This document shows, piece after piece, positions 53,227-60,741 of a stretch of DNA of 64,000 nucleotides. A model generated the notes under the pieces. It did no database searches and had not been told where the DNA came from. It saw nothing but the letters and a program-made list of their open reading frames with translations. Position 1 is the first letter of the stretch; each line of letters begins with the position of its first letter. The DNA comes from an uncultured Roseburia sp. Its GTDB lineage: Bacteria; Bacillota; Clostridia; Lachnospirales; Lachnospiraceae. The stretch is from the NCBI GenBank assembly GCA_947564465.1, contig CANOCV010000013.1, positions 1 through 64,000 on the forward strand. Reading direction: 5' to 3'. Made by a program: the position numbers and the translations under genes.

Positions 53227-53261
53227 AAAAAGGAGATGGGCGTCCCCCATCTCCTTTTCTT
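53227..53261 (+). terminator. Rho-independent terminator after the binding-protein gene
   Basis: AAAAGGAGATGGG and CCCATCTCCTTTT form a strong stem with a short GC-containing loop, followed by CTT. Confidence 0.9.
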
Positions 53262-53357
53262 ATATCATAGGAAAGACCTTATTGCTGTGAAGCACTAAAA
53301 CCTACTACTTATGATATAAAAGCTTATGCGCACTCGCATTAGAGGAAGATATTGTTA
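53260..53357 (+). ncRNA. Candidate structured RNA element, copy B
   Basis: TTATATCATA (about 53260-53269) pairs with TATGATATAA (about 53310-53319). Inside is the block shared with copy A: ATAGGAAAG, then TTATTGCT (53279-53286) pairing with AGCACTAA (53291-53298) around GTGA. AGAGGAAGAT follows at 53341-53350, as in copy A. The outer stem differs in sequence from copy A but is again a stem. Function unknown. Confidence 0.45.
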
Positions 53358-53366
53358 TGTAATGGC

Positions 53367-53404
53367 CCTAAGGAATCCCCCAGGCAAGCCTGGTACCCCT
53401 TAGG
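53367..53404 (+). other. Compound hairpin
   Basis: CCTAAGG (53367-53373) pairs with CCTTAGG (53398-53404), enclosing CCAGGC-AA-GCCTGG. A second small hairpin TCCGC-AG-GCGGA follows at about 53410-53421. Neither has a T tract. Similar in build to the hairpin at 11,178-11,218. Confidence 0.5.
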
Positions 53405-53441
53405 ACAAATCCGCAGGCGGAAACAAAAGCTGCGCATTGAA

Positions 53442-53482
53442 AGTTGTTAATCCGCGAGGGTGTGCGAAGCGCACTTTTGTTC
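53442..53482 (+). repeat. 41-nt repeat with terminator-like hairpin, copy 1
   Basis: AGTTGTTAATCCGCGA begins a 41-nt unit that matches 60,575-60,615 in 38 of 41 positions. Its second half is a hairpin (GTGTGC-GAA-GCGCAC, 53460-53474) followed by TTTTGTT. It reads as a + strand terminator and ends 3 nt before the stop codon of the minus-strand surface-protein gene. Confidence 0.75.
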
Positions 53483-53484
53483 CT

Positions 53485-56157
53485 TTATTCTTTGACAGTT
53501 ACTGTGAATTTCTTTTTTACTCCGTTCGATGTTACGGTTATCTTTGCCTTTCCAATGCCTTTGGCTGTTACCATGCCCTTTTTCGATACGGTTGCAACCT
53601 TTTTGTTGTTCGATTTGTAAGTGATTTTTTTGGCAGGTGTTGCGGTTGCGCGAATTTTAACCTTTTTGCCGACTTTCAGTGTGGCTTTAGTCTTTTTCAA
53701 TTTCAGCGTCGGTTTTTTTACGGTAACGGTGCATTTTACGGTAATGCCCTTATAGGTGGCGGAAATTGTAATATTTCCTTTTTTCTTTGCAGTTATTTTA
53801 CCGTTTTTAACGGACGCAATCTTCGGATTGCTCGAAATCCATGTTACAGCCGCACCGGAAAGCTTTGTTCCGTTATAGGCAGCTGAAAGCGTGAGCGTTT
53901 TTTTGCCTTTCGTGTAAAGGGTAGCCGTTGTATTCGTCAGCGACAAATTATCGGAAGGAGCGGAAGATTTTATCTGAGTCAGGGCAGCCTCCGCACTTGT
54001 CAAAACATCATAGTTAATAACGAGCGCTTTCTGGTCATTTGTCAACGCGTTGTAGGCGCTTCTTGCTTTTACAATCAGAGGCTCACTGTTCAAGCTTACG
54101 CTTCCGATCTGAGAGATGGCGTCAATCACGGCGGACGCAGCGATGTTGTCGGCCTCGGCTTTCTGCGCTTTATCAAACGCTTCCTTCATGTCAGCATAGG
54201 CGTGTTCCGCATTTACCAGAACATCATAGTTTGTGACAAGTGATTTTTGTTCGGAGGTCAATGCGTCATAAGCCGTTCTTGCAGTATAAATATCGCTTTC
54301 GCTGTTTAAGGTAATATATCCGATCCGCTCAATTTTTGTCATAACAAGGTTGGCGGCCGCCTGATTTGCCTCGTCTTTATCGTCCGGTATACCGCCTCCG
54401 TTTTTGAGTTCTTCGAGGGCGTGTTCCGCAGCGGTTAATGTTGTGTAATTGCGCACGAGCGCTTTCTGGTCAGCAGTCAGTCCATTGTAAGCGTCTCTTG
54501 CGCGCACAATGGCGGCTTCGCTGTCTAAGGTTACGGTTCCTATCTGAGTAATCAAATCGCTTACGGTGGAAGCGGCTAATTTATCGGCTTCGGTTTTTTC
54601 CGCATTTTCAAACGCCTCTTTTAATTCTTTGTAGGAGTTTTCCGCGTTTGTTAAAACGTCATAGTTTGTGACGAGCGCCTGCTGTTCGGGAGTGAGCGCG
54701 TCATAAGCGTCTCTTGCGCCGCGGATATCTTCCTCGCTGTCTAGTGTGATATATCCGAGCTGCTCTATTTTAAGCATCACAAGGTTTGCGGCTGCACGGT
54801 CGGTTTTTTCCTGTTCGTCAAGCTCTGCATCTTTCTTGAGCTGTGCAAGCGTATCCTCTGCGGCGCTCAAGACCGTATAGTTGCTCACAAGCCTTTTTTG
54901 GTCGGAGGTCAGCGCATTGTAGGCATTCCTTGCACGTATGATGGCGGACTCGCTTTCTAAAGTGACCTCTCCGATCAGTGAAATGCTTTCTATTACGGCG
55001 GATGCTGCAAGTTTATCTGCTTCGGCTTTTTCCGCGTTGTCAAATGCTTCTTTCAATTCGGCATAAGCAGTCTCTGCGTTTTTCAGGACTTCGTAGTTTG
55101 TGACAAGCGATTTCTGCTCGGAGGTTAACACATCGTAAGCGGTTCTTGCATTGCTGATTGCGGTCTGGCTGTCTAAGGTTACGGAGCCGATCAGCGCGAT
55201 TTTATCCATAACAAGCTTTGCGGCAGCCTGATTTGCCTGCTCTTTTTCGTCAGGAGGCATATTTTCCTGTTTCAGCTTGGTGAGTGCGATTTCCGCTTCG
55301 ACTAATGTGGTATAATTAGTGACAAGAGCCCGCTGTTCGGGAGTGAGTGCGTCATAGGCATTCCTTGCCTCAACGATGTACGGTTCACTCTCTAAAGTAA
55401 CGACGCCGATTTGGGAAATCAGAGTAACGACTTTATTTGCTATAATTCCGTTGTTCATATTTTCCGTAGTTTCCTGTTTATCCTGGAACTGAATATGATT
55501 TGCCTCAGCGTAAGATTTCGCATAGGAATCTGCCGGGGCAATAATCTTCAGGTCAGGATCGCAGCCGTCGAAGGCTTTCGCTCCGATTGACGTCACGGAG
55601 GCCGGAATAGTGATTTCATTTAGAGAGGAGCATGCCGCAAAGGCTTCGTCCTCTAAGGTGGCAACACCCTCAGGCAGAATAATGCTGGTGAGGTTTGTAC
55701 AGCCGCCGAATGCTTCCAGCATGATTGTGCTGACGGAGGATGGCAGAGAAACGCTCGTTAATCCGCTGCATCCGTAAAATGTGTATGGCGCAATTGTAGT
55801 GACTCCCGACGGAATGGTGATGCGGTTTAAGCCGGTGCATCCCTCGAATGCCATAGAGCCGATTGCCGTTATGGTGCCGGGCATTGAAATATCGGTTAAA
55901 GTGCTGTTCCCGCTGAATGCTTCGTAGCCGATTTCCGTTACGGCAGTTCCTTCTATTGTATCCGGTATATTTACATTCTGGTCCGCTCCCTTATAAGCCG
56001 TGATACGGCCCGCCGCCGCGTCAAACGCAAAATCGCTTTCCGCAGCGTATACAATATTTACAGCCGGGGTGTACCGGAAATTCGGCATGGCTGAAATACC
56101 TAAGGAAAGGATAAGAGCTCCTGCGACCAGTTTTGGAGCAAGTGTTCTTTTTTGCAT
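53485..56157 (-). CDS. Secreted surface protein: BspA-type LRR, seven helical repeats, Ig-like domains
   Basis: The start at 56157 has AAAGAGGTATC upstream; an ATG at 56175 is possible. The roughly 890-residue protein has a signal peptide (1 to about 36), a BspA/LRR_5 leucine-rich region (about 45-235: repeated IGSMAFEGCTGLNRITIP-like units), then seven repeats of about 70 residues (about 240-735). Two C-terminal Ig-like modules rich in Lys follow (about 740-890). No sortase motif or membrane anchor is seen. LRR_5 and Ig-like domains usually mediate binding to host or microbial surfaces. It is one of only four minus-strand genes, flanked by structured repeats on its 3' side. Confidence 0.82.
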   Translation of the reverse strand: MQKRTLAPKLVAGALILSLGISAMPNFRYTPAVNIVYAAESDFAFDAAAGRITAYKGADQNVNIPDTIEGTAVTEIGYEAFSGNSTLTDISMPGTITAIGSMAFEGCTGLNRITIPSGVTTIAPYTFYGCSGLTSVSLPSSVSTIMLEAFGGCTNLTSIILPEGVATLEDEAFAACSSLNEITIPASVTSIGAKAFDGCDPDLKIIAPADSYAKSYAEANHIQFQDKQETTENMNNGIIANKVVTLISQIGVVTLESEPYIVEARNAYDALTPEQRALVTNYTTLVEAEIALTKLKQENMPPDEKEQANQAAAKLVMDKIALIGSVTLDSQTAISNARTAYDVLTSEQKSLVTNYEVLKNAETAYAELKEAFDNAEKAEADKLAASAVIESISLIGEVTLESESAIIRARNAYNALTSDQKRLVSNYTVLSAAEDTLAQLKKDAELDEQEKTDRAAANLVMLKIEQLGYITLDSEEDIRGARDAYDALTPEQQALVTNYDVLTNAENSYKELKEAFENAEKTEADKLAASTVSDLITQIGTVTLDSEAAIVRARDAYNGLTADQKALVRNYTTLTAAEHALEELKNGGGIPDDKDEANQAAANLVMTKIERIGYITLNSESDIYTARTAYDALTSEQKSLVTNYDVLVNAEHAYADMKEAFDKAQKAEADNIAASAVIDAISQIGSVSLNSEPLIVKARSAYNALTNDQKALVINYDVLTSAEAALTQIKSSAPSDNLSLTNTTATLYTKGKKTLTLSAAYNGTKLSGAAVTWISSNPKIASVKNGKITAKKKGNITISATYKGITVKCTVTVKKPTLKLKKTKATLKVGKKVKIRATATPAKKITYKSNNKKVATVSKKGMVTAKGIGKAKITVTSNGVKKKFTVTVKE
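53955..55450 (-). repeat. Seven tandem 70-residue coding repeats alternating between two types
   Basis: Each repeat follows the plan I-x-x-I-G-x-(V/I)-T-L-x-S-E, A-Y-(N/D)-x-L-T-x-(D/E)-Q, L-V-x-N-Y, A-E. Odd repeats read SAVI-like starts with RARNAYNALT and are Ala/Leu-ended; even repeats read AANLVMxKI with TAYDALTSEQKSLVTNYDVL and a long acidic helix (EAFDNAEKAEADK). The alternation suggests that a two-repeat unit was duplicated as one. Confidence 0.8.
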
Positions 56158-56335
56158 GATAGATACCTCTTTCATTTTTAAATGTAGTATTTATAGTGGT
56201 CAGTGGTTAGTGGATAATTTAATTCTATCCTAACATAAATAAAAAAGATTGCAATGCCTGCAAGCTTTGCCGCAAGAAATTTGAAGGAAGAAGTAAAAAA
56301 AGTTACTTTTCAGGAAAAAAAATTGGATTGCAGTA

Positions 56336-60401: not shown

Positions 60402-60457
60402 ATGTACCCGAAGATGATTTCGGGGCGTCCTGTCAGATGAGGATATCCGTTTTTTTG
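60370..60457 (+). terminator. Terminator overlapping the 3' end of the GNAT gene
   Basis: AAAACGGATATCTGAATCTGACA (60370-60392, in the coding end; 23 nt) is nearly complementary to 60431-60453, followed by TTTT. A second hairpin (CCCGAAGATGATTTCGGG) sits in the loop. Confidence 0.7.
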
Positions 60458-60465
60458 TATCATAG

Positions 60466-60571
60466 GATTCGGGTGTTAAAAGGTTGTGAAAAAAGTTTTT
60501 ATTGGCAGTTTGCACAAATACATGCAAATTGCCAGCATTCTTCTTGTTCACAACCTTTTGACATCCGAATC
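60466..60571 (+). repeat. Nested 105-nt palindrome, possible MITE or structured RNA
   Basis: An outer stem of 25 nt (60466-60490 with 60547-60571) and an inner stem of 13 nt (60502-60514 with 60523-60535) are each complementary with only two deviations, all four being G-U compatible in RNA read from the + strand. Outer and inner stems are separated by short unpaired AT-rich parts. It begins right after the preceding terminator, as copy B does at 53,260. Confidence 0.7.
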
Positions 60572-60574
60572 ATC

Positions 60575-60615
60575 AGTTGTTAATCCGCGAAGGTTTGCGA
60601 AGCACACTTTTGTTC
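60575..60615 (+). repeat. 41-nt repeat with terminator-like hairpin, copy 2
   Basis: Matches 53,442-53,482 in 38 of 41 positions. The hairpin (GTTTGC-GAA-GCACAC) has one mismatch, followed by TTTTGTT. In both places the unit closes an intergenic region that starts with ATCATAGGA right after a terminator. Confidence 0.75.
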
Positions 60616-60741
60616 TATCGGAGTGTTTTACACAAAACCGTCACATAATGGTCATAAATTTACCACAAAGAGAACAAAAAGCGGACAAACAATTATTCTA
60701 CAATAGGTTATCGGAAATATTTTGAAGCGGAGGAAATGTAT

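Follow-up and report, generated by a model that had tools for sequence, protein, structure and literature searches.

Two intergenic regions of one stretch of DNA from an uncultured Roseburia species (64,000 nt, referred to below as the window) have both ends in common and different interiors, which raises the question of what kind of unit keeps its ends while its core varies. Site 1 lies at 53262-53484 and site 2 at 60457-60616. At both sites TATCATAGGA stands directly 3' of a terminator T-run (left ends 53262/53263 and 60457/60458), and both right ends consist of a 41-nt module, identical in 38 of 41 nt. The chance expectation for two such module matches in the window is 0.00; TATCATAGGA taken alone is not significant within the 64,000 nt. 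A sequence-only reading of the window had described this opening behind a terminator, the shared hairpin end and the unlike interiors. The opening was confirmed at 53263 and 60458, the common end holds, and the predicted folds of the two interiors differ. The left end of site 1, placed at 53260 in that reading, is corrected to 53262/53263, and its "loop element" is present (53262-53317) but is actually a degenerate palindrome. Very probably, both regions belong to a family of mobile elements that are non-autonomous, composite and rich in palindromes and that land 3' of intrinsic terminators.

The features of the two regions are listed in Table 1. Site 1 runs from A through B (the core's 5' half), the inserted palindrome C and D1 to D2. 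Palindrome C takes the place of the 3' arm of the core; copies without C have an intact core (L028, L030, L108 and L121). The D2 hairpin of site 1 has a 12-pair stem (53454-53480). A reverse-strand terminator is also predicted inside the host terminator of site 1 (53248-53231). At 53482-53487, 2 nt separate the end of the site 1 unit from the stop codon of a convergent gene of 896 aa (53485-56175, minus strand); the unit parts two genes which in the sister species have one short terminator region in common. Site 2 consists of an 8-nt A tip, then the palindrome P, then ATCA joined to D2; the ATCA is probably a remnant of the target duplication ATCATAG. The variable core of site 2 is a second mobile element (P) within a shortened member of the first family, and not an alternative core.

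Table 1. Features of the two regions, in window coordinates.
Feature	Position	Strand	Basis
Site 1, host intrinsic terminator, hairpin AAAGGAGATGGG...CCCATCTCCTTT and T-tract, abutted by the element	53228..53261	+	sequence
Site 1, module A, left-end palindrome/hairpin ATATCATAGG...TATGATAT	53262..53317	+	stem with compensatory changes across species
Site 1, module B, AAAA linker and 5' half of the core stem-loop (ATGCGCACTCGCATTAGAGGAA...)	53318..53365	+	cross-genus core alignment, pair counts
Site 1, module C, inserted palindrome CCCTAAGGAATCCCCCAGGC..GCCTGGTACCCCTTAGGAC	53366..53413	+	absent from A-B-D copies
Site 1, module D1 (GGAAACAAAAGCTGCGCATTGAAA), partial complement of the right tip	53414..53442	+	folding, module annotation
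Site 1, module D2, right-end terminator-like hairpin with CTTTTGTTC tip (the 41-nt module of the sequence-only reading)	53443..53482	+	
Site 2, A-module tip TATCATAG, directly behind the T-run 60450-60456	60458..60465	+	
Site 2, element P, 106-bp MITE-like palindrome GATTCGGGTG...CATCCGAATC, separate family	60466..60571	+	
Site 2, ATCA fused to D2	60572..60575	+	sequence
Site 2, module D2, right-end hairpin	60576..60615	+	

The Roseburia assembly that contains the window (3.07 Mb) was searched with site 1 (56 matches), with site 2 (80 matches) and with a third form, A+E (50 matches genome-wide). With one mismatch allowed, the left tip TATCATAGGAWW occurs 385 times in the genome versus 59 times for the reversed control, from which roughly 160 palindromes or units are expected. 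About 100 units were catalogued by module annotation (101 A-started units from 126 merged segments). The copies were gathered by searches and stretches, so the counts are lower bounds; contig edges truncate units.

A general unit is 50-230 bp long and leads from the left hairpin A (TATCATAGGAAA...TTTCCTATGATA) through a stem-loop core with a purine bulge to a terminator-like end hairpin with TTTTGTTC. The core exists in two alternative forms, B and E; the E module folds to the same shape as the B core and has the same purine bulge. The order of the modules is constant, A-(B)-(C)-D or A-E. The forms found among the 101 units are A-E1-E2 (25), A-E1 (20), A alone or truncated (22), A-B-C-D1-D2 (11), A-D1-D2 (8), A-B-D1-D2 (4) and minor ones. 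Chains are built head to tail only, e.g. (A-E)(A-B-C-D), (A-E)(A-E) and (A-B-D)(A-E), and their units meet at TTTTGTT/(C or A)TATCATAGG, the slash marking the junction. Short derivatives (L045, L105, L163 and L166) retain both ends, and many copies in the genome are truncated, nested or interrupted. An A tip was found at most 330 nt upstream of 27 of 44 module-end copies, against a background of 16% in shuffled DNA; 15 of the 44 lie too near a contig or segment edge to judge, and 2 are without an A tip. The earlier suggestion of mobile cassettes that keep their ends and vary in their cores agrees well with the roughly 100 units, their fixed order and head-to-tail chains, and four absences in the sister species (see below). 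The "common terminator" of the same suggestion stands insofar as the right end is a terminator-like hairpin; D2 and E2, which both serve as right end, are unrelated, however, so that what is shared is a hairpin with a T-rich tip and not one sequence. Many contigs of this genome end at these repeats.

Other repeats lie inside or beside the units. P is a separate MITE-like family (GATTCGGGTG...CACCCGAATC) of about 106 bp, with a longer form of about 350 bp that has a different middle. It was found in the first bases of A modules at site 2 (60466-60571) and at L032, L035, L059 and L046, and its clean copies (L032 and L059) are flanked by the complete 7-bp target duplication ATCATAG. P has the inverted ends and the target duplication of a classical MITE, and is a mobile element that targets another mobile element. 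Palindrome C (CCTAAGGAATCC..CCTTAGGA) looks like an independent small repeat: it occurs in several species (L264, L271, L272; L065; L076) both inside units and alone, adjoins A in another genus (L264, L271 and L272) and stands alone in G003 and G004. The repeat end GATGTTGGGGTCAAATAG(CCCC) also abuts A tips (L034, L054, L116, L154 and L018); contigs break about 55 bp into this repeat, which is probably one end of a longer insertion sequence. Units at L008, L011, L028, L023 and L126 are flanked by F, a repeat of 45 bp (CTTACGGAACCTGCCACCGGCAGCTTCCTTCAGATGCATGGCAAC), at L008 on both sides.

Units lie with their left end directly against the T-run of an intrinsic gene terminator, in one orientation and on its strand. 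Array-first units whose upstream DNA is unique number 67; in 55 of them a T-run of 4 nt or more ends within 2 nt of the left end, versus 2.8% of 1451 control positions. Demanding also a strict, perfect stem of 5 bp or more leaves 36 of the 67 units versus 1 of the 1451 controls, and imperfect hairpins are visible in most of the listed exceptions. The commonest length of the junction T-run is 6-7 nt, and the base preceding TATC is A in 55 of 68 cases. Degenerate A tips lie directly 3' of the array end in 13 of 38 arrays versus 25 of 540 background windows, which suggests that new units land between the terminator and the older unit. At L347 (contig C79, about 497-576), a group II intron (3' end domain V/VI-like, by eye) seems to end about 3 nt upstream of the left end of a unit; behind the gene, intron and repeat unit apparently occupy one kind of site.

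In the sister species (G003), which is about 79-80% identical in the site 1 region, the same two genes surround site 1 with a terminator and without the element. At three further sites, queried with the flanks joined, G003 aligns through the junction without the element. The cleanest empty site is C27:13942, which reads AACACTCCTTTTTT/160 bp/TATCATGGAAA in the genome of the window and AACACTCCTTTTTT/CTATTAAAGAAAAG (also given as AACACTCCTTTTTT/CTATTAAAG) in G003, with the same terminator intact. At three of the four empty sites the terminators have diverged between both species, and only one empty site is exact. No consistent target duplication for the composite element was seen at the empty sites. 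At the orthologous terminator of the C27 site (rpmF), G007 and G008 have other TATAGGAAA-type or related palindromes, which show either old inheritance or repeated targeting. G003 apparently has an unlike unit at the site orthologous to Roseburia L002. Copies number dozens in the Roseburia genome of the window and few in G003, and none was found in G005. Movement and loss are inseparable at single sites with these species, though G003 has few copies; movement is favoured by the absence at T-run junctions, together with the unequal copy number within the genus and the nested insertions. At L207 (G003:C30 near 28580) the terminator of the empty site (GAATCCGGCAAAGCCGGATTC and T7) is almost the same as the end hairpin E2, and may be an element end that was adopted as gene terminator.

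The A hairpin and the core are conserved as folds. In 19 diverse A sequences, 8 of 14 stem pairs are changed on both sides, and the covariation score is 0.286, versus 0.139 in shuffled and at most 0.088 in slid alignments. With a covariance model of A, 58 out of 250 genomes from the family itself and 10 from other families in the order gave matches, although the model describes a short palindrome and its matches include many short palindromes and weak hits, not all proven members. In one genus of a second family (f24/g284, including the complete genome G291) there are 20-30 matches per genome, and weak hits in low-copy genomes may be due to chance. The copies inspected come from about 15 genera; they stand behind terminators and mostly continue with AAAA and the core, whose cross-genus form is ATGCGCACTCGCAC..AGAGGAA..hairpin..GTGCTCGGCGC. 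In this core both sides are changed in 12 of 19 pairs, and the score is 0.366, compared with 0.181 after shuffling and no more than 0.126 after sliding; the pair-type measure is not exceptional. Among 59 fetched loci the core model matched 42 times; some of these loci had also served to build it. A scan of genome contigs with the D1 motif yielded one real relative, in a Lachnospiraceae MAG (L232); the other match (L231) was rejected as a chance coding hit. Rfam 15, used with gathering and relaxed thresholds, gave no relevant match, the only hit above cut-off being a T-box near the copy at L283, which is a separate feature. A tRNA search found none, and the A pattern was not found in viral contigs.

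The preferred reading, a mobile family, draws on direct observation of the copy number, the module order, the chaining, the oriented abutment to T-runs, the four absences in G003 and the conserved folds of A and core. A trans-acting enzyme would put the left end 3' of a hairpin with T-tract, and insertion at this place, behind the terminator, would do little harm. With a hairpin and T-rich tip as right end (D2 or E2), each copy would rebuild the target; this would explain why units chain (TTTTGTT/TATCATAGG) and why A tips are left over 3' of arrays. The variable interiors would derive from internal deletions sparing both ends and from the insertion of palindromic elements (C, P and G), and site 2 would be a case of an interior changed by palindromic insertion. 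No autonomous partner or mobilising enzyme was found. A Y1 transposase is absent from the high-copy genomes G206 (99% complete) and G262 (complete, one contig) as well as from G003 and G267, and a group II maturase is absent from the high-copy genomes G262, G192 and G267 and from G003. Both were rejected as resident mobilisers, as they are missing from several high-copy genomes. Their joint absence from the complete, many-copy genome G262 points to an enzyme of no assigned kind, or to one that has been lost. Likeness among the copies reaches only about 80-95%, and the family need not be active at present in this Roseburia species.

It is unlikely that the units are REP/PATE-like elements moved by a Y1 transposase of the IS200/IS605 type (TnpA or RAYT). 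Elements of this type have hairpins near both ends and insert 3' of a short T-rich target, without duplication and in fixed orientation. The geometry of the present elements agrees with this pattern, GAACAAAAG in D1 is complementary to the tip CTTTTGTTC, and about 0.7 kb from one copy (L061) there is a Y1 gene that contains an internal TAA; however, the four genomes without a Y1 gene named above and the Roseburia Y1 copy, which is broken and has ends unlike A or D, argue against it. The odds are more clearly against host 3'-UTR or small RNAs under selection (back-up terminators, insulators or sRNAs), whose spread would be the duplication of useful parts and not selfish movement. The compensatory changes that keep the A hairpin and the core fold across genera would suit such RNAs, as would the recurrent purine bulge (RGGAA) of the core and the terminator-like end hairpins, but mobile elements recognised by their hairpins are expected to covary too. 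The strongly unequal copy number among species of the same genus (dozens, few in G003, none in G005), the four absences in G003 and the many truncated, nested and interrupted copies also speak against selected RNAs.

Mobilisation by the machinery of group IIC introns, or by another reverse transcriptase, is very improbable. Group IIC introns target terminators; the same kind of target and the same orientation are consistent with such a route, and the apparent intron end about 3 nt from the copy at L347 is a hint of it, but by eye neither a domain V-like sequence nor a GUGYG start can be seen in the units, and no group II maturase was found in G262, G192, G267 and G003. Highly doubtful, too, is the idea that the elements are small retro-elements, the RNA of which is copied, joined to the 3' ends of other terminated transcripts and recombined into the chromosome; it would account for a junction at or near the end of the terminated transcript (U-tract), for the transcript orientation and for the element's own terminator-like end, and, if true, would amount to an RNA-end-directed insertion not known from bacterial repeats. 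A chance likeness or local duplication of the two regions, with no wider family, fits the presence of only two copies within the window but has practically no probability left, being refuted by the 56 and 80 genome matches to dispersed copies, the excess of left tips and the relatives in many genera.

This repeat family, abundant in the Lachnospiraceae, a dominant gut group, is apparently uncatalogued in Rfam and in the literature searched; a literature search for palindromic repeats of Lachnospiraceae found nothing matching. Its copies coincide with contig ends in draft assemblies. The precision of the landing site suggests an insertion mechanism that has yet to be assigned to repeats of this kind, and the strict position behind terminators together with the rebuilt site leads to a testable question, namely which enzyme recognises a hairpin with T-tract. 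The family also bears on the evolution of gene 3' ends, as insertions repeatedly alter the DNA behind genes and separate convergent neighbours.

Several known systems resemble the present elements in part. Group IIC introns insert between genes, after inverted repeats (PMC8876359). They share with the elements the target behind a terminator, the strand and the lack of a target duplication, but the elements have no ribozyme core (no Rfam match) and no reverse transcriptase, are 50-230 bp long and are modular. IS200/IS605-derived elements are likewise inserted in one orientation 3' of a short fixed target (here a T-run, then mostly A) without duplication, whereas a Y1 gene, which IS200/IS605 or REP-RAYT would require, is missing from several high-copy genomes, and the ends of the Y1 copy in the genome of the window differ. 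High-copy intergenic palindromes in mosaics are also typical of REP/BIME with RAYT, but REP/BIME alternate in orientation and the present units run head to tail. SPRITE is another small interspersed repeat with a terminator-like hairpin; it is one long hairpin with a T-rich tract, in contrast to a multi-module unit behind an existing terminator.

EFAR of Enterococcus faecalis are reportedly miniature palindromic elements of variable length, assembled from many sequence types; their empty sites are said to be stem-loop sequences, with the insertion deleting most of the target stem-loop. The variable-length palindromic mosaics and the stem-loop targets of EFAR, as so described, recur here, but the target terminator stays intact, most clearly at the C27 site. 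EFAR has been listed among the bacterial MITEs (PMC3733652). The composite unit differs from a classical MITE: A is internally palindromic, the unit ends are not inverted copies of each other, and there is no consistent duplication. The BOX elements of pneumococci are non-autonomous composite repeats, boxA-boxB(n)-boxC, that form stem-loops (Croucher et al. 2011, PMC3049150). BOX clusters with, and is interrupted by, other small repeats, and boxE/boxF of S. suis are related sets with other end modules (PMC3049150). BOX and the present elements, set side by side by description, are alike in architecture, with fixed 5' and 3' modules and optional middles (A in front, D2 or E2 at the end, B and C present or absent); neither Rfam nor the BOX paper provided a link at the level of sequence. 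Unlike BOX, the present left end abuts terminator T-runs in one direction, units follow each other head to tail, and a terminator-like hairpin forms the right end. The strict oriented abutment to intact terminators, the end hairpins that rebuild the target and the covarying core set the present elements apart from BOX and EFAR.
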